Shown here piece by piece: positions 40,682 through 57,049 of a DNA stretch of 64,000 nt. Position 1 is the stretch's first letter. Each line of letters opens with the position of its first letter. The DNA comes from Bacteroides sp. CAG:1060_57_27 (lineage in GTDB: Bacteria > Bacteroidota > Bacteroidia > Bacteroidales > UBA932), in the NCBI GenBank assembly GCA_001915575.1, contig MNQT01000026.1:374-64373 (forward strand). Reading direction: 5' to 3'. The notes below the pieces were generated by a model. That model did no database searches. It worked only from the letters and a program-made list of their open reading frames with translations, and had not been told where the DNA came from. Both the position numbers and the translations under genes were made by a program.

Positions 40682-41835
40682 ATTAGGTCTGCGACGGCGA
40701 GCAGATATTCCAGCTGGGTCTGCAGGGCGAGTTCGCGGGAACTGTAGAAGTAGCTTATCTCGTTCATATAGTCCAGCAGCGACATCTGTCCGCTGTCGAG
40801 CGCCTTCTGAAGATCCCGCAGCCCTTCGTCTGAGTCCGTGAGCAGGGCGTATCCCGCAGCCGATTCGGCAAGGCCCGCAGCCTTTTCGTACAGGTTTTCG
40901 GCATTGGTGCGGAACTGTACCAGAGCATCCTGCTCGGCGAGGCGGGCCGCTTCCAGCTGCTTCTTCGCGCTGGAGATCTTCTTTCCTGCCGACCACAGGG
41001 GTATGCTCACTCCTACCGATACTCCGCGGAAGCCCTCGCCGGGCACCACCTCTGACTTGTATCCTACCGACAGGCTCGGAAAAGCCTCGCTGCGGCTCAG
41101 TTTGAGCTGCTTCTCGGAGGTGCTTGTGGATGTGCGCACATACTCGAGCGCGCTGCTCTTCCCTGAGGCCTGTTCAAGCCACAGCCCGAAGCTGCCGGGA
41201 AGCAGTACTGTCTCCTGCTCGCAGGCGGTGATCACTATGTCTTCTCCGCCGTTGAGGTTCTTCAGTTCCGCGAGAAGGCCGTCGCGCTCGACTTCGCACA
41301 GCCTCAGCGTCCCTTCGGCTTCCGCGAGTCCCACCGCCGCCTTGCGGTAGTCTATTACGGAGAACTCACCCTTCTCGTATCCGGAACGGTAGGCCTGCTC
41401 CACGGCGCGGGCGTTGTCGGCCCTGCGGGTGTATTCGGCGATCAGCGCGTTGCAGTTGATTATCCTGTATACCAGCTTGCGCGCCTGGGTGAGTATGTCA
41501 CGGCGGCTGGCACGGTATTCGAGGGCGAGAAGTTCGTTCTGCCCGAGGGCGAGCCGCTTCCTGGCGCCGGTCAGGGCCCCGAAGTCGAAGCTCTGGCTCA
41601 CTCCGAAGTCGTGCCTGCGCCGTCCGTCCTCCCCGAAGAGGTATCCGAACTCCACTTCCGGCCCTTCGAGTCTCGCCTCGGCGAGATTTGCGTCCGCGCC
41701 GGCATCGAGCTGCTGCTGGAGCGCCTTCAGAGTCAGGTTGTTTTCGCCTACCTGCCCGAGTATGTCGTCTATGGTCTGTGCGCCGGCAACCGTGCATGCG
41801 ATTGCGGCGGCCAGTATCGAAAGTATCCTTTTCAT
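40666..41835 (-). CDS. TolC-family outer membrane efflux protein (CzcC-like)
   Basis: 389 residues. A signal peptide ends near VAGAQ. The rest is two OEP repeats with long helices rich in Ala, Leu and Arg, including GVSQSFDFGALTGARKRLALG and FRGVSVGVSIPLWSAGKK, the paired strand-entry segments of the outer-membrane barrel. It is the outer-membrane exit duct for the RND pump. The gene overlaps czcA-like by 4 bp and is last in the operon. Confidence 0.92.
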   Translation of the reverse strand: MKRILSILAAAIACTVAGAQTIDDILGQVGENNLTLKALQQQLDAGADANLAEARLEGPEVEFGYLFGEDGRRRHDFGVSQSFDFGALTGARKRLALGQNELLALEYRASRRDILTQARKLVYRIINCNALIAEYTRRADNARAVEQAYRSGYEKGEFSVIDYRKAAVGLAEAEGTLRLCEVERDGLLAELKNLNGGEDIVITACEQETVLLPGSFGLWLEQASGKSSALEYVRTSTSTSEKQLKLSRSEAFPSLSVGYKSEVVPGEGFRGVSVGVSIPLWSAGKKISSAKKQLEAARLAEQDALVQFRTNAENLYEKAAGLAESAAGYALLTDSDEGLRDLQKALDSGQMSLLDYMNEISYFYSSRELALQTQLEYLLAVADLMALEM

Positions 41836-44800
41836 TTCTTTTCCTCCTTTTCGCTGAAGATGTCGTAGACAATGGGTATCACGAATGCGTTGAGCAGCGT
41901 GGAGCTCAGCAGGCCTCCGAGGATGACCTTCGCCATGGGGCTCTGGATCTCGTTGCCCGGCAGCTCTCCTCCCAGCGCGAGCGGTATCAGTGCGAGGGCT
42001 GACGACAGGGCGGTCATCAGAATGGGGTTAAGCCTGTCGAGCGAACCGGTCATCACCGCGTCGGCCACTCCGAGCCCGTGGTGCCTGAGGTCGTTGTAGC
42101 GGTCTATCAGCAGCATTCCGTTGCGCGTGGCGATGCCGAACAGCGAGATAAAGCCGATGATCACGGGTATCGACAATACGCGGTCGCTGAAGAACACCAT
42201 GAGCACACCGCCGATAAGGGCGAGCGGCAGGTCTATCAGCACTATGGCCGACTGCTTGAAGCTGCGGAACTGGTTGTAGAGCAGCAGGAATATCACTATG
42301 ACCGCGAAGACCGTCAGTACCGACAGCGTGCGCGAGGCGCTCTGCGCGCTCTCGAACTGACCGCCGAACTCTATGTGGTAGCCTTCGGGCAGGGTGACTT
42401 TTTCGGCGATCGCCGCCTGCATGGCGTCGACCGCTCCCTGCAGGTCGCCTCCGGTGATGTTCGCCGATACCACTATCTTGCGTTGCGCGTTCTCGCGGTT
42501 GATAGTATTGGGGCCGGTGGTGGAACGTATCTCTGCTATGTGGTCGAGGGGAACCTTTCCGGCAGGGGTGTCGACAGTCATGTCCCTTATCGTCTCGATG
42601 CGGTCGCGCCAGTCGCCTGCGGCCTTGACGGTGAGGTCGAACACCTTACCGCCTTCATATACCTGCGATACAGGACGGCCTCCGAGGCATACCTCGACAT
42701 ATTCCACGAACTCGGACATCGTCACCCCGTAACGGGCGAGCATCTCGCGGCGCGGGACTATCGCCAGTTCCGGCCGTTCGATCTGCTGCTCCACGTTGAG
42801 GTCCGCGAGGCCCTCGACTCCGCTCACCGCCTCCTTGATGTCGTTGCCGAGGTTGAAGAGCGTGTTGAGGTCGTCGCCGAATATCTTGACGGCGATCGCG
42901 GCCTGAGTTCCCGAGAGCATCGCGTCTATGCGGTGCGATATGGGCTGGCCTATCTCTACATTGACACCGGGCAGGGTGCCCAGCTTCTCGCGCAGTTCCG
43001 CGATGATTTCGTCCTTCGGACGACCGCCGAACTCGAACGGAGCCTCCATTTCAGAGGTGTTCACCCCGAGGGCGTGCTCGTCAAGCTCCGCACGTCCGGT
43101 CTTGCGGGCCACGGTCTTGATTTCGGGAACCGACAGTATCAGTTCCTCGGCCTTGCGTCCGATAGCGTCGCTCTCTTCGAGCGATACTCCGGGCAGCGTG
43201 CTCACGTTGATCGTGAACGAGCCCTCGTTGAACGGAGGCAGGAAGCTGGAACCGAAGCCGAACGCCATCACTACGGCTCCGACGAGCGCCGCCGCCGATA
43301 CTCCCAGCACTGCCTTGCGATGGTGCAGCGCGGCTTTCAGGGCCTTGCCGTAGCCTTTCTTGAGCCAGCGCGTGACGGGAGACTCCTTGCTCGTCCCCTT
43401 TGTGGCCCCCGTGTTCTTAAGCAGGAAACTGCACAGCACCGGGGTGAGCGTGAGCGCTACCAGGGTAGATGCGAACAGCGACACTATGAAGGCGACTCCG
43501 AGCGGAATCAGCATCCTGCCTTCGATTCCGGAGAGGAAGAAGATAGGGATGAAGCTGACCACTATGATGAAGGTGGAGTTGAGTATGGGCATACGGACCT
43601 CCTTGGAGGCGTCGAACACCACGTCGAGTACCTTGCGCCTCTCCGCCTCGGGCCTGAGGCGGTTCTCCCTGAGCCGCTTGAACACATTGTCCACATCGAC
43701 TATCGCGTCGTCTACCAGCGAGCCTATGGCGATAGCCATGCCTCCTATGCTCATGGTGTTGATGCTCATCCCGGTGACCCTCAGCACTATGATCGTGATG
43801 AGCAGGGAGAGGGGTATGGTCACGAGCGATATCAGCGTCGTCCTGACATTCATCAGGAACAGGAAGAGCACGAGTATCACGAACAGCGCGCCTTCCACGA
43901 GGGCTTTCTTGATGTTGCCTATCGAGGCGTCGATAAAGCTGCTCTGGCGGAAGATGTCGGTCTTCACCTCGACATCGGGGGGAAGGGTCTCGGCGATTTC
44001 GGACATCTTGGCGTCAAGCGCGTCGGTGAGATCGTTCGTGGACACCTTGGGCTGTTTGGTCACCGTCAGCAGCACTCCGCTCCTGCCCTCTATGGATGCG
44101 GTGCCGGTGCGGGGCTCCTTGGGTCCGGTGCGCACTTCGGCTATGTCCCTAAGCGTCACGGGCCTGCCATCGTCGGCAATCTTGACCACCGCGAGCGAGA
44201 GCTCGTCGACGGAGGTGGTGGACGACATGCCCCTTATTATGTATTCGTTGGAGTATTCATAGAGCACTCCGCCGGAGGCGTTGCGGTTCATGTCGGCAGT
44301 GGCGTCGAGGACTTCGTCGGTAGTGACTCCGTAGCGGCGCATGCGGTCCATGTCGAGCAGTATCTGGTATTCCCTGATGTCGCCTCCAAGCACGGCTACC
44401 TGTGCGACTCCGCCGACGGCGAGCAGCTGGGGCCTTATGGTCCAGTCGGCAATGGTGCGGAGCTCCTCGGGCGAAGTCTCTCCGTCAGAGGTGAGGCCGA
44501 TTATCAGCACTTCGCCGAGTATTGACGACTGGGGGCCGAGAGTAGGGGTTCCGACATTGGCGGGAAGCTGGTCGCCGAGGGTCGCGAGCTTTTCGGAGAC
44601 TATCTGCCTGTCGCGGTAGATGTCCGTGCCCCAGTCGAACTCAACCCAGACTACCGAGAATCCGGTCGTGGACGACGAGCGGACGCGGCGTACGTCCGTG
44701 GCGCCGTTGACGGCGGTCTCTATGGGGAAGGTGACGGTCTTCTCCACCTCTTCCGGAGCCATTCCCTGCGCTTCTGTCATTATGACTACCGTGGGCGCGT

Positions 44801-44927
44801 TGAGGTCGGGGAACACGTCCACCTCCATTGTCTCGGCGACATACATGCCGCCTACGGCCAGCAGCACTGCGGTAATCAGGACGAGCAGCCTGTTGTGCAG
44901 CGAGAATTCTATTATCCTGTTGAGCAT
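41832..44927 (-). CDS. HME-RND heavy-metal efflux pump (CzcA/CusA family)
   Basis: 1031 residues with the 12-helix RND architecture and two large periplasmic loops. The helix IV motif is MAIAIGSLVDDAIVDVDNVFKRL. Compared with CzcA (D402, D408, E415) the first Asp is replaced by Ala and the Glu by Asp, a pattern nearer to CusA. The CusA methionine relay is not clearly present. The transported metal is therefore unclear (Cu/Ag or a divalent cation). It is energised by protons and pairs with the CzcB-like adaptor 6 bp upstream and the CzcC-like duct overlapping downstream. Confidence 0.93.
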   Translation of the reverse strand: MLNRIIEFSLHNRLLVLITAVLLAVGGMYVAETMEVDVFPDLNAPTVVIMTEAQGMAPEEVEKTVTFPIETAVNGATDVRRVRSSSTTGFSVVWVEFDWGTDIYRDRQIVSEKLATLGDQLPANVGTPTLGPQSSILGEVLIIGLTSDGETSPEELRTIADWTIRPQLLAVGGVAQVAVLGGDIREYQILLDMDRMRRYGVTTDEVLDATADMNRNASGGVLYEYSNEYIIRGMSSTTSVDELSLAVVKIADDGRPVTLRDIAEVRTGPKEPRTGTASIEGRSGVLLTVTKQPKVSTNDLTDALDAKMSEIAETLPPDVEVKTDIFRQSSFIDASIGNIKKALVEGALFVILVLFLFLMNVRTTLISLVTIPLSLLITIIVLRVTGMSINTMSIGGMAIAIGSLVDDAIVDVDNVFKRLRENRLRPEAERRKVLDVVFDASKEVRMPILNSTFIIVVSFIPIFFLSGIEGRMLIPLGVAFIVSLFASTLVALTLTPVLCSFLLKNTGATKGTSKESPVTRWLKKGYGKALKAALHHRKAVLGVSAAALVGAVVMAFGFGSSFLPPFNEGSFTINVSTLPGVSLEESDAIGRKAEELILSVPEIKTVARKTGRAELDEHALGVNTSEMEAPFEFGGRPKDEIIAELREKLGTLPGVNVEIGQPISHRIDAMLSGTQAAIAVKIFGDDLNTLFNLGNDIKEAVSGVEGLADLNVEQQIERPELAIVPRREMLARYGVTMSEFVEYVEVCLGGRPVSQVYEGGKVFDLTVKAAGDWRDRIETIRDMTVDTPAGKVPLDHIAEIRSTTGPNTINRENAQRKIVVSANITGGDLQGAVDAMQAAIAEKVTLPEGYHIEFGGQFESAQSASRTLSVLTVFAVIVIFLLLYNQFRSFKQSAIVLIDLPLALIGGVLMVFFSDRVLSIPVIIGFISLFGIATRNGMLLIDRYNDLRHHGLGVADAVMTGSLDRLNPILMTALSSALALIPLALGGELPGNEIQSPMAKVILGGLLSSTLLNAFVIPIVYDIFSEKEEKK

Positions 44928-44933
44928 GGCACG

Positions 44934-46088
44934 TCAGTGGTTGTGGGTATGTCCCGGAATTACGGATGCCGCCGAGAGCCTTACCTGGTATGCCCCCTTG
45001 ACGACGACGTCTTCTCCGCCGTCGAGGCCGGAGACGATCTCGACATCGACTCCGTTACGGCCGCCGATGGTCACGGGAACCTTCCTGTAGCATTCCTCGT
45101 CGAGCCTGACATAGACGAAAAACTCCCCCTGCTCTTCGGTGAGCGCAGACTCGGGTACGGAAATGACCCCGTCCCTGCTGTCGGTGAGCAGCCATGCCTC
45201 TACATACGAGCCGTTCATCAGGCCGTAGCGGTTGGCGAATTCGAAAGTCACCGGGATGTATGCCGACGAGGCTGATACGGAGCGTCCGACCGATACCGGA
45301 CGGCCTTCGGTGCCCGTTAGGCACACGGGCGTGTCGCCGTAGTGCAGCTTGAAGTTCACTCCCGATATGGAATTCCTCAGGGAGGCGTATTTCTCGGGCA
45401 GGTCGGCGGTGAGGCGCAGGCGCGAATCCGAGCTTACAGTCGCTATCGCCTCTCCTGCGGCCACATAGTCGCCCTCTGTCTTGAGCACGCCAGTGATGCT
45501 GCCGTCGATCGGAGAGCTTACCGCCACTCCGTTTCCGGCTCCGTCGGCGCTGGAACCCTGGTAGGCGTTCTTGGCCGTGAGATAGTCGGCTTCAATGGCA
45601 GTGAACTCCCTTTGCGAGATTATCCTGTCTTCCAGCAGGCTCTTCGCCCTCAGGTATTCTTTCTCTGCGGCTGCGAATGCGATTGCCGCCCTTGTCACTG
45701 CGTCTCCGGCTCCCATTCCTCCGGCTGACACTCTCGCGATTGTCTCCCCGTCTGATACTCTCTGGCCGGGAACCGGTGTCGCCCCGTTCCATGAAAGGAT
45801 GCCGGAAGTCAGGGATGTGACTGTGGCGGAACCTTTTCCGGAAGGGGAGAGGACGCCGGAGGTGCGTATTGCCGAGCTGAACTTTCCGGGCTGTATCGTC
45901 TCGACCTCTACCCCGGCCTCCCTTGCCCTCTCGGGAGAGAGGACTATCTCTCCGTGGGCTGCTTCTCCCTCGTGGGCGTGCGCTTCCGCTTCGGATGCGG
46001 TTCCGTGGTCATGGTCTTCGTTCTTGTTATGGCAGGCGGCAGCGGCCAGCAGGCACAACGCCGCCAGTAACAGGTATTTCTGTTGCAT
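44934..46088 (-). CDS. RND efflux periplasmic adaptor lipoprotein (CzcB-like)
   Basis: 384 residues. The signal peptide ends at lipobox AAAC (Cys about residue 19). The mature N-terminus is His-rich (HDHGTASEAEAHAHEGEAAHGE), likely metal-binding. The membrane-fusion fold follows: barrel-sandwich and lipoyl segments (GKGSATVTSLTSGILSW, VAVSSPIDGSITGVL), an alpha-hairpin around 155-190, and a beta-barrel with FANRYGLMNGSYVEAWL. The protein ends HTHNH. ATG 46088 begins the signal peptide. It bridges the RND pump to the outer-membrane duct. Confidence 0.92.
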   Translation of the reverse strand: MQQKYLLLAALCLLAAAACHNKNEDHDHGTASEAEAHAHEGEAAHGEIVLSPERAREAGVEVETIQPGKFSSAIRTSGVLSPSGKGSATVTSLTSGILSWNGATPVPGQRVSDGETIARVSAGGMGAGDAVTRAAIAFAAAEKEYLRAKSLLEDRIISQREFTAIEADYLTAKNAYQGSSADGAGNGVAVSSPIDGSITGVLKTEGDYVAAGEAIATVSSDSRLRLTADLPEKYASLRNSISGVNFKLHYGDTPVCLTGTEGRPVSVGRSVSASSAYIPVTFEFANRYGLMNGSYVEAWLLTDSRDGVISVPESALTEEQGEFFVYVRLDEECYRKVPVTIGGRNGVDVEIVSGLDGGEDVVVKGAYQVRLSAASVIPGHTHNH

Positions 46089-46144
46089 AATCGTTTTCTT
46101 TCGGTTTATGTTGCCTTTGTGAATTGCGTCTGTGCATCCGGTAT

Positions 46145-46182
46145 GCTCCCGGCACCTGAGCATGGACGCTGCATGCCGGAGC
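46145..46182 (-). repeat. Hairpin in the efflux operon leader region
   Basis: GCTCCCGGCA (46145-46154) and TGCCGGAGC (46174-46182) pair with one bulged base around a 19-base loop. It lies in the 124-bp spacer between the small His-rich gene and the adaptor gene. No T-tract follows, so it may be a processing or stability element. Confidence 0.4.
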
Positions 46183-46212
46183 GGCAGGATGCGGGCCGCT
46201 TGTGGAATGCGG

Positions 46213-46557
46213 CTATATGCAGGCCCGGAACGGAGGCCCTCGCAGGGCCGAATGCGGCAGGAAAGCCGCCGTCTTGGAGATGAAACGGCAGGAAAGGTCG
46301 GAAATCCTGCGCACTGCGTGATCCGGACGGTCCGAAAGGTCGGGGATGTCGTCATGGACGAGGGCGTCCGCCGGTATGCAGAGCTGTGTGTCCTCGTCGG
46401 AACTCTGCAGGAAGCTCTCGAGCTGCGAACAGCTGTAATGCACGTGGATATGGTTTTCGACACGCGTGCAGTGGTGGCTGTGCGGTATCAACGAATGCAG
46501 CAGCACGAAGGCGAAGGCCAGCATGCACAGCTTGGATATTGGTATCCTCCTTTCCAC
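46213..46557 (-). CDS. Small His-rich membrane-anchored or exported protein
   Basis: About 114 residues if started at GTG 46557 (MERRIPISKLCMLAFAFVLL); ATG 46524 is an alternative. The basic N-terminus and hydrophobic helix look like a signal peptide or anchor. It is followed by the His-rich HSLIPHSHHCTRVENHIHVH and several Cys, suggesting metal binding. The remaining part is low in recognisable motifs. The location just ahead of the metal efflux genes and the shared promoter suggest a periplasmic metal-sensing or chaperone role (inference). With the -7 box at 46562-46569, the GTG would sit about one base after the transcript start, i.e. leaderless. Confidence 0.6.
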   Translation of the reverse strand: MERRIPISKLCMLAFAFVLLHSLIPHSHHCTRVENHIHVHYSCSQLESFLQSSDEDTQLCIPADALVHDDIPDLSDRPDHAVRRISDLSCRFISKTAAFLPHSALRGPPFRACI

Positions 46558-46826: not shown

Positions 46827-48182
46827 ATGGACAAGTTTACCAAGAATTATGTCGAGAGGTTCATGTCTGAGCTGATCGCAAGGAACCCCGGTGAGAGCGA
46901 ATTCCACCAGGCGGTGAGAGAGGTTGTCGAGAGTGTAGCCGACTATGTGGTCGCCTATCCTTACCTCATGGATTTCAAGATCCTCGAGAGAATGGTCGAG
47001 CCCGAGCGCGTGATAATGTTCCGCGTGCCCTGGATGGACGACAGGGGAGAGATACACATCAACCGCGGCTACCGCGTGCAGATGAACAGCGCCATAGGCC
47101 CCTACAAGGGAGGTCTCCGCTTCCATGCGAGCGTCAACCTCAGCATCATGAAGTTCCTCGCGTTCGAGCAGACTTTCAAGAACGCGCTCACGACTTTGCC
47201 CATGGGCGGCGGCAAGGGCGGTTCTGACTTCAGCCCCAGGGGCCGCTCTGACGCCGAGGTGATGCGTTTCTGCCAGAGTTTCATGACCGAGCTTCAGAGG
47301 CATATCGGCCCCGATACCGATGTCCCTGCCGGTGATATCGGAGTCGGCGGCCGCGAGATCGGCTATCTCTTCGGCCAGTACAAGAGGCTGAAGGACGAAT
47401 TTACCGGAACCCTTACGGGCAAGGGACTCGCATGGGGCGGAAGCCTGCTGCGTCCCGAGGCCACCGGCTACGGGGTCTGCTATTTCGCGGAGCAGATGCT
47501 CGCGCGCGAGGGCAAGTCGTTCGAAGGCCAGACAGTCCTCATCTCAGGAGCCGGCAATGTCGCCCAGTTCGCGGCACAGAAGGCCATGAGGCTGGGTGCC
47601 AAGGTTGTCACCCTGTCCGATTCTGACGGATACATGTACGATCCCGAGGGCCTCGACGAGGAGAAGCTCGCCTATGTAATGGAGCTCAAGAACGTGCGCC
47701 GCGGCCGTATCAGCGAATATGTGAAGCAGTATCCTCAGGCCAGGTACTTCCCCGGGGAGCGTCCCTGGAAGGTGCCTTGCGACATCGCCCTTCCCTGCGC
47801 CACGCAGAACGAGATTGAGGCGGCCGATGCCGGGAATCTCGTCAAGGGCGGATGCTGGTGCGTAGTGGAGGGTGCGAACATGCCCAGCACCCCCGAAGCG
47901 ATTGCCATATTCCAGCAGGCGAAGATGCTCTACTCTCCCGGTAAGGCGTCCAACGCCGGCGGAGTGGCTACCTCCGGTCTCGAGATGAGCCAGAATTCCA
48001 TGCGCCGCAAGTGGACTTCCGAGGAGGTCGACGCCCAGCTGCGCACTATCATGACGGGCATCCACGAGGCCTGCCTCGAGTACGGTACCAGGGAGGACGG
48101 CTATGTGAACTATGTAAAGGGTGCCAACATCGCCGGATTCATCAAGGTCGCCAATGCCATGGTGGACCAGGGACTCGTATAG
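46827..48182 (+). CDS. gdhA: Glutamate dehydrogenase (NADP-type, hexameric)
   Basis: 451 residues, the usual length of bacterial hexameric GDH. The substrate-binding segment is GPYKGGLRFHASVN, with MGGGKGGSDFSPRG holding the catalytic Lys, and DVPAGDIGVGGREIGYLFGQYK also conserved. The Rossmann-type NADP domain contains VLISGAGNVAQFAAQKA. It aminates 2-oxoglutarate to glutamate, the main ammonia-assimilation route in many gut Bacteroidales. It is followed 6 bp later by the REC-PPDK fusion gene. Confidence 0.97.
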   Translation: MDKFTKNYVERFMSELIARNPGESEFHQAVREVVESVADYVVAYPYLMDFKILERMVEPERVIMFRVPWMDDRGEIHINRGYRVQMNSAIGPYKGGLRFHASVNLSIMKFLAFEQTFKNALTTLPMGGGKGGSDFSPRGRSDAEVMRFCQSFMTELQRHIGPDTDVPAGDIGVGGREIGYLFGQYKRLKDEFTGTLTGKGLAWGGSLLRPEATGYGVCYFAEQMLAREGKSFEGQTVLISGAGNVAQFAAQKAMRLGAKVVTLSDSDGYMYDPEGLDEEKLAYVMELKNVRRGRISEYVKQYPQARYFPGERPWKVPCDIALPCATQNEIEAADAGNLVKGGCWCVVEGANMPSTPEAIAIFQQAKMLYSPGKASNAGGVATSGLEMSQNSMRRKWTSEEVDAQLRTIMTGIHEACLEYGTREDGYVNYVKGANIAGFIKVANAMVDQGLV

Positions 48183-48188
48183 CAGGAT

Positions 48189-51134
48189 ATGTTTGGACAG
48201 GACTATACCAGGTTGATGGTCAGGAGGATACGCAACATCCTGCTGATATGTAACAATTACGACAGCTTCTCGCTCGAGGAGGACGGCCATATAGAGGCCC
48301 GGATTTCGCAGGAATATACCGAGCTCAACCTCAGCAATCCTCCTTCCATCGACCGGGTGGAGTCCACAATGGAGGCTCTCGACCTCATAAAGCGTCAGGG
48401 TGAAAGGTACGACCTGATAATCACTATGTTCAATGTCGGCAGGCTCGACGTGTTCGAGTTCGCCGCGCTGGCCAAGGAGATAGTCCCGCAGACACCGATA
48501 GTGCTGCTGTCGTCGTATTCGAAGGTCATCTACAACCATATAGTCAGCCAGGACAGGTCCAACTTCGACTATGTGTTCAGCTGGAACAACAGCACCGATC
48601 TCATAATCGCTATCATCAAGCTGCTCGAGGACAAGCTTAACGCCGACCACGACATACTCGAGATGGGCGTGCGTACGATAATGCTGGTCGAGGATTCCGT
48701 GCGCTATTATTCGGCCTACCTGCCCCTGCTCTACCGGCTCGTGCTCAGGCAGAACAACGAGTCCGTGCGCGACGCCCTCAACGAGGAGCAGCAGTTCATG
48801 CGCAAGCGCGCGAGGCCCAAGATACTGCTCGCCACCTGCTACGACGAGGCGCTGGAGCTGTACCGCAAGTACAAGACCAACATGCTCGGAATCATCTCCG
48901 ATGTGGGCTTCATCCTCCACAAGGGCGACAGCCGGGCCACCGAGGTCATCGATGCGGGGATTGACCTGTGCCGGCTTATCAAGTCGGAGATACCCACTAT
49001 GCCATACCTGCTGCAGTCGTCCCAGGAGAGCATGAGGGCCGTGGCGGAGGAACTTGGCGTAGGCTTCGTGCGCAAGACTTCGAAGACGCTGATCCACCAG
49101 CTCAGCGAGTATATAGCCCGGGAGTTCGCGTTCGGCGACTTCCTCGTGACAGACCCGCATACCGGGCAGGTGCTCGCGCGGGCGCGTAACCTCTATGAGT
49201 TCGAACGCCTGATCGCAACGATGTCGGACGATGCCCTGAGGTATTTCGCGGGCAAGAACTACATCTCACGCTGGCTGTACAGCCGAGGCCTCTTCACGAT
49301 AGGCAACTCGTTCCGGGATATAAGCATCAACGAGGGTTCCGACCTTGCCGAGATACGCAAGCTGAACCTCCGGATGATTCACGACTACCGCATCCGCCAG
49401 GGTCTGGGAGTCGTGGCCCGCTTCGAGCCCGAGAGCTACAACGACGCAATCTGGTTCTCGCGCCTCGGCGACGGCTCTCTCGGAGGCAAGGCGCGCGGCC
49501 TCGCGTTCCTCAACCACATACTCTCCAAGTACGACCTCTACGGCAGATGGGAGGATGTGCGCGTGCTTGTTCCGCGCACGCTCGTCATCACCACCGAGTA
49601 CTTCGACCGCTTCATCCTCGAGAACGGGCTGCAGTATGTGATAAACTCCGACCTCTCCGACAACGAGATACTCTCCGAGTTCGTCGCCTCGACCCTGCCT
49701 TCCGACCTTACGGACGCCCTCAGGGTGTTCATACGCAATGTGCGCAGGCCACTGGCCGTCCGTTCGTCCTCCATACTCGAGGACTCGTACTACCAGCCTT
49801 TCGCAGGGGTGTATTCGACCTACATGATTCCCCATACGGAGAACGAGGACCAGGAACTGCGCCTGCTGTCGAAGGCCATAAAGAGCGTGTATGCCTCGGT
49901 GTACTTCGCGTCTTCGAGGGGCTACATCATCTCCACTTCCAACGTGATATCGGAGGAGAAGATGGCCATAGTGCTGCAGGAGATTTGCGGCAGCGAGGAC
50001 GGTGGCTACTATTTCCCGACGCTTTCGGGCGTAGCCCGCTCGATAAACTTCTATCCCATAGGCTACGAGACTCCCGAGGACGGTGTCGCCAAGGTGGCGT
50101 TCGGCCTGGGCAAGGCCGTGGTGGACGGCGACCAGGTGCTGCGCTTCTCGCCTAAATATCCCAAGAACGTGCTCCAGACCTCCACGCCCGAGCTCACGAT
50201 GAACGAGACCCAGCAGGCGATGTTCGCGCTGAACCTCCAGCCTGACCGCTTCAAGACTTCCGTCGACGACGCCGTGAACCTCGAGCGCATACCGGTGTCG
50301 GACTGCGGCAGGTTCCGCTCCTTCTCGAAGGTGGTGTCCACCTGGGACTACGAGAACCAGCGCATCGTTGATTCTCCGGTGCCGCGCGGTCCGAAGTTCG
50401 TCACTTTCGCACATATCCTCAAGTACAACACCTTCCCGCTCGCGGACATACTCTCTACGCTGCTCGACATCACCCGCAGGGAGGTCAAGTGCGCCGTGGA
50501 GATCGAGTTCGCGGCCGACCTCGACAGGGGACCGGACGGGGCCGCCCTGTTCAACGTGCTTCAGATACGGCCTATCTCTGCTGTGACAAGCTTCAACAAG
50601 GTCGACTGGGATTCCCTCGACACTTCAGGCGCCCTGCTATCTTCCGGCTGTGCGATAGGTCCGGGCACAATCCAGGGCGTAAGGGACATAGTCTACCTGC
50701 GCAGGGAGGGCTTCGACACGCTCAAGACCCGCGAGATTGCTTCCGAACTGACAGCCCTCAACACCAGGATGCGAGAGGAGGGGCGGAACTATGTGCTGAT
50801 AGGCTACGGACGCTGGGGTTCCAGCATACCGACGCTCGGTGTTCCGGTGCAATGGAGCAATATCTCCGAGGCAAGGGTCATAGTGGAGTGCTGTCTCGAG
50901 AACTTCAGGGTCGATCCCAGCCAGGGTACGCATTTCTTCCAGAACATGACTTCTTTCAATGCCGGATATGTCAATGTCAATCCTTATTCCCGTCCGGGCG
51001 AGTATTGCGACTTCGACGCCCTCGATGCCATGCCGGCCGAATACGAGAGCGAATTCGTTCGTATGGTGCATTTCGACGAAGACCTCACCGTCTGCATAGA
51101 CGGACAGGAGGACAGGGCGCTGGTGAAGGCATGA
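48189..51134 (+). CDS. Receiver-receiver-PPDK_N (PEP synthase-type ATP-grasp) fusion protein
   Basis: 981 residues with no signal peptide. Residues 15-145 form a receiver-like domain lacking the phospho-acceptor Asp (ITMFNV at the expected site). Residues 160-310 form a second receiver-like domain that keeps the acidic pair (VEDS, E168-D169), the acceptor Asp238 (IISDVGF) and Lys296 (VRKTSK), with a long insertion. Residues about 420-805 are a PPDK_N/PEP-synthase ATP-grasp domain: GDGSLGGKARGLAFLN, AVRSSSILEDSYYQPFAG and LQIRPIS. The phosphohistidine swivel and PEP-binding barrel of PPDK/PpsA are absent. A 175-residue C-terminal region (RNYVLIGYGRWGSSIPTLGV, QGTHFFQNMTSFNAGYVNV) has no domain I recognise. 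It is 6 bp after gdhA, so nitrogen or carbon sensing is plausible. Confidence 0.9.
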   Translation: MFGQDYTRLMVRRIRNILLICNNYDSFSLEEDGHIEARISQEYTELNLSNPPSIDRVESTMEALDLIKRQGERYDLIITMFNVGRLDVFEFAALAKEIVPQTPIVLLSSYSKVIYNHIVSQDRSNFDYVFSWNNSTDLIIAIIKLLEDKLNADHDILEMGVRTIMLVEDSVRYYSAYLPLLYRLVLRQNNESVRDALNEEQQFMRKRARPKILLATCYDEALELYRKYKTNMLGIISDVGFILHKGDSRATEVIDAGIDLCRLIKSEIPTMPYLLQSSQESMRAVAEELGVGFVRKTSKTLIHQLSEYIAREFAFGDFLVTDPHTGQVLARARNLYEFERLIATMSDDALRYFAGKNYISRWLYSRGLFTIGNSFRDISINEGSDLAEIRKLNLRMIHDYRIRQGLGVVARFEPESYNDAIWFSRLGDGSLGGKARGLAFLNHILSKYDLYGRWEDVRVLVPRTLVITTEYFDRFILENGLQYVINSDLSDNEILSEFVASTLPSDLTDALRVFIRNVRRPLAVRSSSILEDSYYQPFAGVYSTYMIPHTENEDQELRLLSKAIKSVYASVYFASSRGYIISTSNVISEEKMAIVLQEICGSEDGGYYFPTLSGVARSINFYPIGYETPEDGVAKVAFGLGKAVVDGDQVLRFSPKYPKNVLQTSTPELTMNETQQAMFALNLQPDRFKTSVDDAVNLERIPVSDCGRFRSFSKVVSTWDYENQRIVDSPVPRGPKFVTFAHILKYNTFPLADILSTLLDITRREVKCAVEIEFAADLDRGPDGAALFNVLQIRPISAVTSFNKVDWDSLDTSGALLSSGCAIGPGTIQGVRDIVYLRREGFDTLKTREIASELTALNTRMREEGRNYVLIGYGRWGSSIPTLGVPVQWSNISEARVIVECCLENFRVDPSQGTHFFQNMTSFNAGYVNVNPYSRPGEYCDFDALDAMPAEYESEFVRMVHFDEDLTVCIDGQEDRALVKA

Positions 51135-51175: not shown

Positions 51176-51955
51176 ATGATAAAGTCGATATTTTTCGACA
51201 TCGACGGCACTCTGGTGAGTTTCAACACGCACCGCATCCCCCGGTCCGCCGTAGAGGCTATCACGCTGGCGAAGCGGCGCGGCGTAAGGATCTTCATCTC
51301 CACCGGCCGCCCTTTCCCTCTGATTGACAACATCGGGGAGATCAGGCACCTCGTCGACGGCTACATCACCGTCAACGGTGCCTGTTGTTTCATCGGGCCG
51401 AGAATCATCTCGTGCACGCCCATACCCGGAGACGACGTGCGGACGGTGCTGCGCCTGTCGGAAGAAATGGATTTCGCGACCCTCGTGGCAGGGGAGAAGA
51501 CCCTGGCGATGTATAACGACAAGCCTTATGCCGACGAGATTTTCCGGCGGCTGCTCGATGTCGGCGGCCTGAAGGGCGGCATTACTGCGGAATCTGTCCT
51601 CAAGGAGCGCGTATTGCAGTTTACGCCCGTAGTCACCCGCGAACTGGAGGAAATGATAATGCCGCAGCTTCCCGGCTGCGTCTCCAGCCGCTGGTGCCCC
51701 GAATTCGCGGACATCACGGCTAAGGGTGTGGACAAGGGAAAGGGCCTTATGGCCGTCATATCAGACCAGAACCTCAGGATTGAAGAGACCATGGCTTTCG
51801 GCGACGGAGGCAACGACATGGCCATAATAAGGAGCGCGGGCTTGGGCGTCGCCATGGGAAATGCCGGCGACTCGCTGAAAAAAGTCGCCGGCTATGTCAC
51901 GGACACGGTCGACGACGACGGTATAAGCAAGGCGCTGCAGAAGTTCGTGCTGTAG
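51176..51955 (+). CDS. Cof-type HAD-IIB phosphatase
   Basis: 259 residues. HAD motif I is FFDIDGTLVS (nucleophile Asp8), motif II is ISTGR, motif III Lys is in GVDKGKGLMAV, and motif IV is AFGDGGNDMAII. The C2B cap domain lies between about 85 and 185. Such enzymes dephosphorylate sugar phosphates or related metabolites such as flavin precursors; the substrate is not predictable. It ends exactly where convergent asd ends. Confidence 0.93.
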   Translation: MIKSIFFDIDGTLVSFNTHRIPRSAVEAITLAKRRGVRIFISTGRPFPLIDNIGEIRHLVDGYITVNGACCFIGPRIISCTPIPGDDVRTVLRLSEEMDFATLVAGEKTLAMYNDKPYADEIFRRLLDVGGLKGGITAESVLKERVLQFTPVVTRELEEMIMPQLPGCVSSRWCPEFADITAKGVDKGKGLMAVISDQNLRIEETMAFGDGGNDMAIIRSAGLGVAMGNAGDSLKKVAGYVTDTVDDDGISKALQKFVL

Positions 51956-52960
51956 CTACCCCGCCTTGCTTATGAGATATTCCGCAATCTGCACTGCGTT
52001 GAGTGCGGCGCCCTTGCGTATCTGGTCGCCTGAGAGCCACAGGGTCATGCCGTTCTCGTCGGCAAGGTCGCGGCGTATGCGGCCCACATAGACATCGTCC
52101 TTTCCGCCGGTGAAGAGAGGCATGGGATAGGTCTTCGTCGCGGGGTCGTCCTGCACGGTGACTCCCGGGGCGGCCTGGAGCGCAGCGCGTACCTGTTCTT
52201 CCGTGAGAGGTTCTTCGGTCTCGATCCATACGGCTTCCGAGTGGGAACGCAGCGAGGATATCCTCACGCAGGTCGCGGAGCAGCGGATATCCGAATGGAG
52301 GATCTTGCGCGTCTCGTTGAACATCTTCATCTCTTCCTTGGTGTAGCCGTTGTCGGTGAACACGTCTATCTGCGGAATCACGTTGTATGCCAGCTGGTAG
52401 GGGAACCTGTCCACGGTCACGTCTTCGCCCTGCACTATCTGGCGGTACTGCTCCTGCAGTTCCGCCATGGCCTGCGCTCCCGCTCCCGATGCCGACTGAT
52501 AGCTTGCGACATGCACGCGGCGTATGTGCGAGAGCCTGTCTATGGGCTTCAGGACCACCACCATCATTATCGTGGTGCAGTTGGGGTTCGCGATTATCCC
52601 GCGCGGACGCACGAGGGCGTCTTCGGCGTTGCATTCGGGCACTACCAGGGGGACATCGTCGTCCATACGGAATGCGCTCGAGTTGTCTATCATCACCGTG
52701 CCGTGCCTGGTTATGGTCTCCGCGAACTCGCGCGAAGTGCCGGCTCCTGCCGATACGAACGCGTAGTCCACGCCCTTGAAGTCGTCGTTGTGCTGCAGGA
52801 GCCTTACCTCCAGATCCTCGCCGCGGAAGGCGAACCTACGTCCCGCACTCCTCTGCGAGCCGAAGAGCAGAAGCTCGTCGGCAGGGAAATTCCTCTGTTC
52901 GAGCACGCGCAGGAACTCCTGTCCCACCGCTCCGCTCGCACCTACTATTGCTGCTTTCAT
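51956..52960 (-). CDS. asd: Aspartate-semialdehyde dehydrogenase
   Basis: 334 residues. The NADP loop is [16 protein letters not shown] at the N-terminus and the catalytic Cys is in [28 protein letters not shown] and the basic substrate-site segment are conserved. It reduces aspartyl phosphate to aspartate semialdehyde for threonine, methionine, lysine and cell-wall DAP synthesis. It follows thrA by 33 bp in the same operon. Confidence 0.96.
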
Positions 52961-52993: not shown

Positions 52994-55432
52994 TCAGATA
53001 TTCGCTATGCTCATTATGTCGGCGAACACTCCCGCCGCGGTGACATCCGCACCGGCGCCGTAGCCCTGGATGAGCATCGGGTGGCGGTTGTAGCGTTCGG
53101 TGGTGAGGCGTATGATGTTGTTGGAGCCCTCGAGGGCGTAGAAGGAGTGTGTGCTGTCCACCTCCTCCAGACCTATCGAGCAGCGTCCGCTGTCCATTCG
53201 GGCCACGAACCTGAGCCTCTTGTGCTCCTTCTCCAGGATCTGCCTGCGGCTTTCGAAAGCGGCGTCGAGTTCCGGCAGCCTTTTCCAGAACTCCTCCATC
53301 GAGCAGGCGAAAAGCTCGTCGGGGATGAATAGACGTGCTTTCACATCTTCCATTTCGACCCTGTATCCTGCTTCCCTCGACAGGATTACGAGCTTGCGCA
53401 TCACATCCTTCCCGGAAAGGTCAATCCTCGGGTCTGGTTCGGCGAAGCCCTGCTCCTGTGCCATACGTACCGCTCGGCTGAAGGGGACTTCGGCCGATAG
53501 GGTGTTGAATATGAAGTTCAGCGTGCCGCTTAGGACGGCCTCGAGCCTCAGTATCCTGTCGCCGCTGTTGCAGAGGTCGTTGATTGTGTTGATTATCGGC
53601 AGCCCCGCGCCGACATTGGTCTCGAACAGGAACTTGACTCCGTGGCTCAGGGCAGTGTCCTTGAGTCTGCGGTATGTCCCGTATTCCGAGGATGCCGCGA
53701 CCTTGTTGGCTGCCACCACAGAAATGCTGCGGCTGAAGAAGTCACCGTACAGTCCCGCGATTTCAGGGCTCGCCGTGCAGTCTACGAACACGGAGTTGAA
53801 GATGTTCATGCCGACCACCTCGTCGCGCAGCTTTCCGGGAGTGATTTCCATTCCGCCCTCAAGGGCATCGCGCCAGCCGTCGAGACTGATCCCGTCCCGG
53901 TCGAAGACGGCTTTCGTGCTCCTGGCGATACCTACTATGTTGATTTTCAGGTTCCTCTCCTTCATCAGGCGTTCCCGCTGCGATGCGATCTGCTCGAGCA
54001 GCTTCCCGCCTACCGTGCCGACACCGCAGACGAACAGGTTCAGCTCCTGGTATTCTGAGAGGAAGAAACTGTCGTGGATCACGTTCAGGGCCTTGCGGAG
54101 GTTTCCTCGCTTTACTATGAACGATATGTTGCTCTCCGAGGAGCCCTGGGCGCAGGCTATCACGCTGATGCCGTTGCGTCCGAGCGTGCCGAACAGCTTC
54201 CCGGCTATGCCAGCATGGTATTTCATGTTCTCGCCGACGACGGCGACTGCAGCCAGACCGTTCTCGATGTGCACGGGCTCTATCGCTCCGCTCTCGATTT
54301 CATGGCGGAATTCCCTGTCTATCGTGGCCGCGGCGGCAGCCGCATCCTCCCTGCCTACCCCGATTGTGATTCCGGTCTCGGAAGCGGACTGGCTTACGAG
54401 GAACGCGCTGATGTTCCCGTCCGCGAGCACCTTGAATATGCGGCTGTCGATTCCGACTATCCCGACCATAGAAGTGCCCGTCAGCGTTATCAGGCTGATG
54501 TCGTCAATAGAGGATATGCCTCTTATGAGCCTTTCGTCCCTGCGGCACTCCTGCCTTATGGAAGTTCCCGGAGCGGCGGGGTTGAAGGTGTTCTTTATCA
54601 GTATGGGGATGCCCTTGCGGCATACCGCGTACAGGGTGGGGGGATATATCACCTTCGCGCCGAAGTTGCAGAGCTCCATAGCCTCGGCGTAGCTCATCTC
54701 GTCGATCACATACGAGGTCTTGATTATCTTCGGGTCGGCCGTCATGAACCCGTCCACGTCGGTCCATATCTCGAGCAGTCGGGCGTCCAGGGCGGCAGCC
54801 AGCAGGCTTGCCGTGTAGTCGGAGCCGCCGCGCCCGAGGTTGGTGATCTCGCCGCTTACGGAGTCGGAGGAGATGAACCCGGGCACTATGGCTATCGGAG
54901 ATGCGTCGCCGTAGTCCTTGAAAGTCTCGCGTACGAGCCTGTATGTTGCGGCTGTGTCGGCGACATCCTGTCCCGAGACCTTGGCCGTCCTTATGAATCC
55001 AAGTGAGTCGTATAGCTTGCTTCCGGGTATGGCGGCGCTGACTATTATGGAAGACATCCTCTCACCGAAACTCAGGATCTCGTCCAGGGTCTTTCTCGGG
55101 AGCACTCCCAGCAGCCTGACACCCTGGCATATCCTTTCAAGCCTGTCTGCCAGCTCTTCTATCCTGCGTCCGGTGTCTTCTCTTGCGGCAGGGTCTGTGA
55201 TGCATGCGGAGCACATCTCCAGATGCCTCTTCCTGAGTTCGGAGAGCGATTCGAGGCAGGATTCGTCGCCTCTTTCCGCCAGACGGGCCGTGCTTACGAG
55301 CAGGTCCGTGACCCCTCCGAGGGCAGACACCACTACGATGGCACATTCGCCGCGCCTTTCGATTATAGACTTTACGTTGGAAAGACTTTCCGGAGTGCCG
55401 ACGGAGCTGCCTCCGAACTTCATAATTTTCAT
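52994..55432 (-). CDS. thrA: Bifunctional aspartokinase / homoserine dehydrogenase
   Basis: 812 residues from ATG 55432. The N-terminal aspartokinase starts with KIMKFGGSSVGTPESL and has FGERMSSIIVSAAIPG and GRGGSDYTASLLAAAL. Two ACT regulatory segments lie near 310-450 (SLITLTGTSMVGIVG). The homoserine dehydrogenase half (about 460-812) has an NAD(P) loop in LFVCGVGTVGGKLLEQ, and the catalytic GSNNIIRLTTERY region at the end. It does the first and third steps of the aspartate pathway. The ACT domains imply threonine feedback, known for the family. ATG 55423 is an alternative start. Confidence 0.96.
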   Translation of the reverse strand: MKIMKFGGSSVGTPESLSNVKSIIERRGECAIVVVSALGGVTDLLVSTARLAERGDESCLESLSELRKRHLEMCSACITDPAAREDTGRRIEELADRLERICQGVRLLGVLPRKTLDEILSFGERMSSIIVSAAIPGSKLYDSLGFIRTAKVSGQDVADTAATYRLVRETFKDYGDASPIAIVPGFISSDSVSGEITNLGRGGSDYTASLLAAALDARLLEIWTDVDGFMTADPKIIKTSYVIDEMSYAEAMELCNFGAKVIYPPTLYAVCRKGIPILIKNTFNPAAPGTSIRQECRRDERLIRGISSIDDISLITLTGTSMVGIVGIDSRIFKVLADGNISAFLVSQSASETGITIGVGREDAAAAAATIDREFRHEIESGAIEPVHIENGLAAVAVVGENMKYHAGIAGKLFGTLGRNGISVIACAQGSSESNISFIVKRGNLRKALNVIHDSFFLSEYQELNLFVCGVGTVGGKLLEQIASQRERLMKERNLKINIVGIARSTKAVFDRDGISLDGWRDALEGGMEITPGKLRDEVVGMNIFNSVFVDCTASPEIAGLYGDFFSRSISVVAANKVAASSEYGTYRRLKDTALSHGVKFLFETNVGAGLPIINTINDLCNSGDRILRLEAVLSGTLNFIFNTLSAEVPFSRAVRMAQEQGFAEPDPRIDLSGKDVMRKLVILSREAGYRVEMEDVKARLFIPDELFACSMEEFWKRLPELDAAFESRRQILEKEHKRLRFVARMDSGRCSIGLEEVDSTHSFYALEGSNNIIRLTTERYNRHPMLIQGYGAGADVTAAGVFADIMSIANI

Positions 55433-55452
55433 ATCGGAATCCTGTTTCAGAT

Positions 55453-55482
55453 TTTGCGAGCCCAAAATTATGGATTAATTTG
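55453..55482 (+). promoter_or_regulatory. Possible leuA operon promoter (TTTG, 18 bp, TTAATTTG)
   Basis: TTTG (55453-55456), 18-bp spacer and TTAATTTG (55475-55482), one mismatch from TAnnTTTG. It predicts a leader of about 58 bases. Confidence 0.35.
55463..55470 (-). promoter_or_regulatory. -7 element of thrA-asd
   Basis: TAATTTTG on the minus strand, predicted start near 55459 with a 27-base leader. Confidence 0.55.
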
Positions 55483-55543
55483 GTTTTTTCATAATTAAAT
55501 CTGAAATTAGCCTGAACTAACTTGTTGGTTGGAAATCAGACTT

Positions 55544-57049
55544 ATGCCGGATCGCAGGATATATATTTTCGACACCACCCTGAGGGACGGGGAGCAGGTT
55601 CCGGGGTGCCAGCTCGGCACGGCCGAGAAAATTCAGCTCGCAAAGGCTCTCGAGGAGCTCGGCGTCGACATCATCGAGGCAGGCTTTCCCGTCTCGAGTC
55701 CGGGGGACTTCAACTCCGTGGTGGAAGTGTCCAAGGCCGTCACATGGCCGGTAATATGCGCCCTCACGCGGGCCGTGGAGAAGGATATCGACGTCGCGGC
55801 CGAAGCGCTCAGGTACGCGCGGCACAAGAGGATACATACCGGTATCGGCACTTCGGACCAGCATATACGCCATAAGTTCAAGTCGACCCGCGAGGAGATA
55901 CTCGAGCGTGCCGTGAGGGCTGTCCGCTATGCGAAGAAATATGTAGAGGATGTGGAGTTCTATGCCGAGGACGCCGGCCGTACCGACGACGAATACCTCG
56001 CGCGCGTGGTGGAGGCCGTGATTAAGGCCGGGGCGACGGTCGTCAACATACCGGACACTACAGGGTACTGCCTGCCTTCGGAGTATGCCGCCAAGATACG
56101 CTATCTTGTCGAGCATGTGGACGGCATAGAGAAGGCCGTCATCTCCACACACTGCCATAACGACCTCGGTATGGCCACGGCCAACACGGTCTCCGGCCTG
56201 CTTGCCGGCGCCGGCCAGTGCGAAGTGACGATAAACGGGGTGGGAGAGAGGGCCGGCAATACGGCACTGGAGGAGATAGCGATGATACTGCGCTGCCATT
56301 CCGACATACCCCTCGAGACAGGCATCAACGCCTCGCGCATCTTCCCCGTCAGCAGGATGGTGTCCGGCCTTATGAACATGCCCGTGCAGGCTAACAAGGC
56401 CATAGTCGGGCGGAACGCCTTCGCCCACTCCTCGGGCATACACCAGGACGGCGTGCTCAAGGACGCATCCACATACGAGATAATGGATCCCAAGGATGTA
56501 GGAATAGACGACAGCCACATAGTCCTCACCGCGAGAAGCGGGCATGCGGCACTCAAATACAGGCTCGAGCTGCTCGGAATCAGCCTCGACCAGGCTGCCT
56601 TGGACAGCTTCTACCGCAGGTTCCTCGAGCTTGCGGACAAGAAGAAGCAGGTCGGAGACGACGACCTGCTGATGCTTGCCGGAGCCCAGAGGACGGAGTC
56701 GGCACATGTCAGGCTCGACTACCTGCAGGTTACGAGCGGCAAGGGGCTCAGACCGGTCGCCAGCATAGGACTCGACATAGGAGGCGAGAAGTTCGAGGCG
56801 GTATCCGGCGGCAACGGCCCTGTCGACGCGGCCATCAATGCCCTCCGGCATATCGTCAGGCGGAAGACCCTGATACGGGAGTTCACGATACAGAACATCA
56901 CCAGAGGTTCGGACGATGTAGGCCGGGTACATATGCAGGTCGAGTATGACGGCAGGATCTATTACGGCCTCGGTGTCGATACCGACATCGTGACGGCTTC
57001 GGTCGAGGCATATATCGACTGCATCAACAAATTCACCACCGGCCGATGA
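55544..57049 (+). CDS. leuA: 2-isopropylmalate synthase
   Basis: 501 residues from ATG 55544. The TIM-barrel acetyltransferase domain has [13 protein letters not shown], metal-binding HxH in [16 protein letters not shown], and [16 protein letters not shown]. The SGIHQDG segment leads to the C-terminal LeuA dimer domain (about 365-501), which gives leucine feedback in the family. It condenses acetyl-CoA and 2-oxoisovalerate. The genes downstream (leuC, leuD, leuB) support leucine synthesis rather than citramalate or homocitrate synthesis. The stop overlaps leuC by 4 bp. Confidence 0.95.

Follow-up and report, generated by a model that had tools for sequence, protein, structure and literature searches.

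Genomic linkage of a receiver–receiver–ATP-grasp protein to glutamate dehydrogenase in two bacterial phyla

Glutamate dehydrogenase (GDH) is a main entry and exit point for ammonia in many anaerobes. In a 64,000-nucleotide (nt) stretch of Bacteroides sp. CAG:1060_57_27 (contig MNQT01000026.1, positions 374 to 64,373; hereafter the window), the gene for an NADP-type GDH of 451 amino acids (aa), gdhA (46827..48182, + strand; Pfam PF02812 and PF00208; NF006929, 745 bits), is followed after 6 nt by an open reading frame (ORF) at 48189..51134 on the same strand. An original prediction had described this ORF as a fusion of two receivers and a dikinase-type ATP-grasp domain next to gdhA, which might phosphorylate another target or regulate GDH. 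The ORF is real, codes for 981 aa and contains no internal stops, raising the question of what such a protein does beside gdhA. A functional tie between its family and GDH is, in our judgment, very probable, whereas the earlier interpretation as a whole is partly supported. The adjacency to GDH in distant bacteria suggests an undescribed ATP-using switch over cellular ammonia uptake or release through glutamate.

Linkage and co-duplication with glutamate dehydrogenase

Of 176 relatives found, the 80 best gave the first set of loci, which is biased. In these 80 loci, gdhA lies directly upstream on the same strand in 38, with a median gap of 9 nt between mechanically called ORFs, or in 39 with locus L013, which is counted as adjacent since gdhA adjoins the family member there and an over-extended ORF start had placed it elsewhere. 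The two genes are arranged head-to-head in eight loci, gdhA stands elsewhere in two (L073, L078), and it is absent from 31, including 23 with more than 2.5 kb of upstream sequence. Because of this bias, a profile of the C-terminal domain was searched in two phylum samples, one of 198 Bacteroidota genomes (the phylum of genome G001) and one of 198 genomes from the phylum of the Sphaerochaeta genome G004; G001 and G004, the sample centres, were both known beforehand to contain a member. Linkage was defined as a GDH-type domain (PF02812, which also matches related amino-acid dehydrogenases) no more than 7 kb from the member, and the sole low-scoring adjacency match is a contig-end fragment in G105, shown as GDH in L092.

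The Bacteroidota sample yielded 60 members in 34 of the 198 genomes, and 50 of them, always on the same strand, lie no more than 7 kb from PF02812, against an expectation of about 0.65 derived from GDH counts and genome sizes. Linkage extends across the forms of the family, at 29 of 33 for proteins of about 1000 aa, 8 of 9 for those of about 580 aa and 13 of 18 for distant members. In the phylum of G004, 40 of 198 genomes carry 44 members, with GDH within 7 kb of 32, compared with about 0.25 expected for a uniform 3.7-Mb genome; the arrangements are 18 downstream and nine upstream on the same strand, and three upstream and two downstream on opposite strands. As a control, which covers the Bacteroidota sample only, genes with a PEP-utilizers_C domain in the same 34 genomes were scored by the same distance, and none of 65 lies near GDH. 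The tie to GDH that had been proposed is strongly supported. Co-occurrence points in the same direction in the phylum of G004, where a GDH-type domain was found in 38 of 40 member genomes versus 11 of 20 tested genomes without a member (Fisher p 0.0004), these 20 being the first listed and not a random draw. It is uninformative in Bacteroidota, because all 34 member genomes and all 20 tested memberless genomes contain the domain.

Members without a nearby GDH number 10 of 60 in Bacteroidota and 12 of 44 in the phylum of G004 (22 of 104), and 18 of these 22 lie on contigs in which no GDH was found. Alistipes loci are plainly unlinked to gdhA, with up to 6 kb of upstream sequence covered. By eye, five of them (L019, L020, L025, L027, L032) carry a RidA-like gene close upstream of the member, and some also a C_GCAxxG_C_C-type protein. 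In Parabacteroides distasonis, gdhA is divergent from the family member and a second GDH lies 3.5 kb downstream, so the linkage allows a specific test in a named species. A 278-kb P. distasonis record labelled as a plasmid (L137, NZ_OY725790.1) contains ruvC, rapZ, gdhA and a family member, and may be chromosome sequence.

The two genes have also been duplicated together. Four genomes (L083-L086) each carry a cluster with two units of gdh and member, and the members and GDHs split into the same two types: distances between members are 0.19-0.98 within a type and 1.04-1.12 between types, and those between GDHs are 0.11-0.39 and 0.69-0.86, respectively. L093 breaks this match of types. For the trees, 18 loci were picked by hand from the first 80, and fetched class A pairs (the two-receiver form) no more than 500 nt apart were added; L092, with a GDH truncated at the end of its contig, and L121, with a gap of 3.4 kb, were left out. 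The distance matrices of 37 such pairs correlated with r 0.77, a value reached by none of 5000 permutations, although permutation leaves shared species history in and one gene occurs twice among the pairs (L074 and L117, one genome). An earlier version with 38 pairs gave r 0.28, because one L087 member had been paired with a distant GDH; in the later version its partner was the GDH immediately upstream, and L087_3302 was dropped. When partners were swapped in all four tandem genomes, r was 0.832 against 0.830 for the true pairing, and only mixed swaps fitted worse; the complete swap fits equally well because it amounts to a relabelling of the two types. A comparison of 47 partnered with 8 unpartnered GDHs gave five weak columns and no convincing site, six of 14 fetched unpartnered dehydrogenases having been dropped for scores below 350 bits.

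Domain architecture and the catalytic core

The AlphaFold2 (AF2) model of the whole protein, built with 45 sequences (predicted local distance difference test, pLDDT, 86.7; predicted template modelling score, pTM, 0.79), shows, in sequence, two receiver-like folds, a helical linker and an ATP-grasp domain, with a compact domain at the C-terminus. In Pfam, PPDK_N matched residues 430-799 with 126.5 bits against a cut-off of 27, and a receiver match at residues 49-115 was sub-threshold. Among the 80 named loci, the closest relatives by identity are L036 (Candidatus Cryptobacteroides avistercoris), with gdhA adjoining, and L048 (uncultured Bacteroidales), each 89% identical to the window protein. 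Conservation in the core was assessed in 47 members, which cover all of the 40 fetched loci except L122, whose member the ORF caller had missed; the 40 loci represent 39 of the 74 member-bearing genomes.

Receiver 1 (residues 13-152; 48225..48644, this and the following features all on the + strand) has no acceptor aspartate: M80 occupies its place in the window protein, and Asp is found in none of 25 wider class A members. Receiver 2 (residues 162-315; 48672..49133) was recognised from the order of strands and helices in the AF2 model and from its residues, as the fold search did not list it separately. To judge by those residues, it has the full set expected of a response-regulator receiver, namely two acidic residues, an Asp acceptor, a T/S and a Lys. 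All 81 sequences have E168, D169, D238 and S277, and 80 have K296; among the wider class A members, E168, D238, S277 and K296 occur in 25 of 25 and D169 in 24. The codon of D238, the predicted phospho-acceptor, lies at 48900..48902. We predict that a histidine kinase phosphorylates D238, with kinase genes adjoining some relatives only. Two-component genes were found in at least five of the 40 fetched clusters (L083, L084, L085, L090, L136), the kinase having been Pfam-tested in L083 and L136.

The PPDK_N-type ATP-grasp domain (residues 416-800; 49434..50588) is followed by the C-terminal domain (residues 806-981; 50604..51131), which carries the motifs GRWGS and SQGTHFFQN. K434, R525, E773 and Q792 of the former, and R875, E900 and H915 of the latter, are present in all 47 members, and R794 in 45. 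In the alignment, R525 matches Arg117 of the rifampin phosphotransferase from Listeria (LmRPH), and the position of K434 in a GGK motif marks it as the likely counterpart of LmRPH K22. According to Stogios 2016 (PMC4844700), Lys22 and Arg117 are required for drug phosphorylation and Glu297 is replaceable without loss; Glu297 is probably the counterpart of E773. On our proposal, the core of ATP-grasp and C-terminal domains is catalytic.

The C-terminal domain is where the original prediction is weakened. Modelled alone (residues 806-974; pLDDT 91.0, pTM 0.89), it adopts a predicted swivelling beta/beta/alpha fold, whose most consistent end-to-end structural matches in VIA-align are to the phosphoryl-carrier domain of pyruvate phosphate dikinase (PPDK). 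The invariant H915 (47 of 47 in classes A-C; codon 50931..50933) is the first residue of a helix predicted at 915-922, which makes it a candidate phosphohistidine and, on the model, a possible phosphoryl carrier. The Pfam scan of the window protein gave no match to PF00391, the phosphohistidine swivel domain; when 23 C-terminal domains were scanned with Pfam at E<=10, six families turned up, each in one member; and Foldseek with the domain alone gave no match at E<=0.001. Profile–profile comparison by hhalign of 51 C-terminal domains with nine PEP-utiliser swivel sequences, a low-diversity set, detected no homology and did not align the His residues, an outcome that we count against homology to the PPDK swivel domain. 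The claim that the protein lacks a phosphohistidine domain is weakened by the predicted fold and the invariant His; as the profile comparison shows no homology, the correction is a structural inference. If the domain is a diverged phosphohistidine carrier, the family would represent a dikinase core reduced to an ATP-grasp and a carrier domain, with a separate protein as substrate.

Other predicted properties fared better. The order of receiver, receiver, PPDK_N ATP-grasp and C-terminal domain agrees with Pfam and the AF2 model, including receiver folds in the N-terminal ~310 residues, and the conservation of the phospho-acceptor set, D238 above all, bears out the reading of receiver 2. The absence of the phosphoenolpyruvate (PEP)/pyruvate TIM-barrel domain was likewise confirmed, as the Pfam scan gave no PF02896 match at E<=1, the protein ends at 981 with the C-terminal domain, and no complete C-terminal half of PPDK was found by hidden Markov model. 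An ordinary PPDK or PEP synthase (PpsA) is rejected since PF02896 is absent; with no PF00391 sequence match either, PEP synthesis is not to be expected. A split dikinase with a lone swivel subunit was also rejected after PF00391 had been searched in the genomes of eight relatives: of 18 matches, the nearest relative, G001, has a single one, in a frame whose 914 aa fit a PPDK; frames of 538-1368 aa account for 16 more, and the last, in G007, falls in a frame of 80 aa close to the start of a contig. An anti-phage system was rejected because PADLOC gave no match at E<=1 and PHROGs matches were weak (E 0.018 and 0.11).

Across the family, three classes share the ATP-grasp and C-terminal core: class A is the two-receiver form of ~1000 aa, class B is the core only (~580 aa), and class C carries other N-terminal modules. 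A nucleotidyltransferase domain (PF01909 above cut-off, GS...DxD motif) was found at the C-terminus of five of the ten class C members scanned by Pfam (L081, L082, L096, L129 and L136; 913-1064 aa), and none in L099 (1010 aa) or in L097, L123, L125 and L133 (778-891 aa). The N-terminus of the ~870-aa form, a region that Pfam does not name, is presumably KaiC-like. A core and a neighbour that stay the same while the modules vary would be expected of a signal-controlled output enzyme that targets this neighbour. In L081 (1891-8218) and L082 (4805-16171), a 580-aa core-only protein and a 1060-1064-aa nucleotidyltransferase-bearing relative are encoded with a 7-base overlap; the pair directly follows a GDH of a more distant class in L081, and is preceded by a distant GDH, an NADP-type GDH and a class A member in L082. 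The GDH beside the class C member of L129 (5083-6315) is in two frames (131 and 240 aa) in that assembly. In L128 (1732-3024) and L124 (7788-9098), the class C member is closely preceded by a gene with a similar STG..LD..GDNVVW N-terminus; the L128 gene matches HTH_3 and, below threshold, a cupin domain, and may be a regulator of the cluster.

Known systems and possible modes of action

Among the closest known systems is rifampin phosphotransferase (RPH; PDB 5hv1, 5fbs; Stogios 2016, PMC4844700), which has a PPDK_N ATP-grasp domain in common with the window protein, with the equivalent Lys and Arg. Both end in a beta/beta/alpha domain, a predicted one in the window protein, that carries a single conserved His, and neither has a PEP domain. 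However, RPH has ~450 residues, including the rifampin-binding domain, between its ATP and swivel domains, compared with ~20 in the window protein, where the predicted strands on either side of the gap are 786-795 (the last of the ATP-grasp domain) and 817-819 (the first of the C-terminal domain), and no rifampin-binding domain is present. The window protein also differs in its two receivers and in a C-terminal domain without detectable sequence homology to the PPDK-type swivel. PPDK and PEP synthase (PF01326, PF00391 and PF02896) share the ATP-grasp fold, and VIA places residues 411-981 on 4-465 of PpsA 2ols and 408-981 on 9-510 of PPDK 1dik (end residues), as though an ATP-grasp were followed by a swivel domain; unlike them, the window protein has neither the TIM-barrel nor a PF00391 sequence match.

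The REC-PPDK fusion itself is already in print. Galperin 2018 called the combination of REC and pyruvate phosphate dikinase 'Bacteroides-like' (PMC5847659), and Maule 2015 mentions pyruvate phosphate dikinase effectors of Asp-less receivers (PMC4395418). From its wording, the fusions in that passage probably belong to the same family as class A; the passage itself gives no GDH link, C-terminal domain or function. Among the papers listed in searches of largely open-access literature, none reported the GDH link, the C-terminal domain or a dedicated GDH-modifying enzyme in Bacteroidota or spirochaetes. PMC12096838 names both enzymes at unrelated loci. Existing names, REC-PPDK as well as PEP/pyruvate-binding protein, the only annotation of the P. 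distasonis orthologue, point to carbon metabolism.

A precedent for dedicated control in nitrogen assimilation exists in GlnE and GlnD, the nucleotidyltransferases that control glutamine synthetase and PII. The likeness is one of working only: like them, the window protein would be devoted to the covalent modification of one enzyme of nitrogen assimilation, and the nucleotidyltransferase domain recurs in half of the class C relatives scanned, but the catalytic core is unrelated and the proposed target here is GDH.

We propose that the protein serves GDH as a dedicated phosphotransferase under signal control, acting on it or with it, a full statement whose chances of being right or wrong we judge about equal. 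Receiver 2 would take its state from a histidine kinase by way of D238, while the Asp-less receiver 1 would be its partner for docking or dimerisation, and the state of receiver 2 would open or close the ATP-grasp domain. The latter would load phosphate or pyrophosphate from ATP onto His915, in the manner of RPH and PPDK; once charged, the C-terminal domain might swing out and act on the GDH encoded next door, whose activity would change in step with the nitrogen or energy state. No acceptor domain was recognised in the window protein, and it is the genomic linkage that points to GDH as a possible acceptor and to an effect on it. The most specific form, in which the GDH protein itself accepts the (pyro)phosphoryl group from a dedicated ATP-grasp/histidine phosphotransferase of at least two phyla, one that works as GlnE/GlnD do for glutamine synthetase and has interchangeable input modules (tandem receivers, other N-terminal modules, a fused nucleotidyltransferase), is put forward tentatively.

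The linkage and the missing substrate domain would also fit a non-catalytic subunit that binds GDH and regulates it allosterically, with the ATP-grasp domain as a receiver-gated ATP/ADP sensor and no phosphoryl transfer; the only PEP-utilizers match of G001 being in its PPDK-sized 914-aa frame, no separate swivel partner is seen there. A pure sensor, however, need not keep the Lys and Arg that correspond to the catalytic K22 and R117 of RPH (PMC4844700), nor the C-terminal His, in 47 of 47 members, and we consider this reading unlikely. Alternatively, the protein could phosphorylate a small molecule of the GDH reaction (glutamate, 2-oxoglutarate or a derivative), the pair forming a short pathway. 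PPDK, PpsA and RPH, all PPDK_N enzymes, work on small molecules according to PMC4844700, and the linkage spans NADP-type and more distant GDH classes. Yet there is no small-molecule binding domain, the 580-aa form consisting of ATP-grasp and C-terminal domain alone; receivers, two-component genes and the nucleotidyltransferase domain indicate signalling; and, GDH and its antisense ORFs aside, the commonest neighbour family occurs in 13 of the 80 loci, all close relatives. A metabolic partnership seems unlikely.

Mere common transcription of nitrogen genes, with the target elsewhere and GDH simply co-regulated, would account for the 22 of 104 members that are not within 7 kb of GDH, and proteins with REC domains can act anywhere. 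Against it, GDH is kept in upstream, downstream, same-strand and opposite-strand arrangements, the units were duplicated jointly in four genomes, and GDH-type domains accompany members across genomes of the G004 phylum (38 of 40 versus 11 of 20). We regard this explanation as very improbable, and retain the signal-controlled phosphotransferase as the working proposal.

Other genes around the locus

Downstream of the ORF by 41 nt and on the same strand, 51176-51955 encodes a Cof-type haloacid dehalogenase (HAD) hydrolase (PF08282, 161.6 bits); L036 has a 259-aa ORF at the matching position, a comparison of place and not of identity. The following ORFs were named by eye from their translations: an aspartate-semialdehyde dehydrogenase-like ORF (51956-52960, - strand), a fused aspartokinase-homoserine dehydrogenase-like ORF (52994-55465, - strand) and a 2-isopropylmalate synthase-like ORF (55529-57049, + strand). 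Upstream of gdhA, again by eye, 41832-46463 on the - strand contains ORFs for a resistance-nodulation-division (RND) heavy-metal-type efflux pump and its adaptor.
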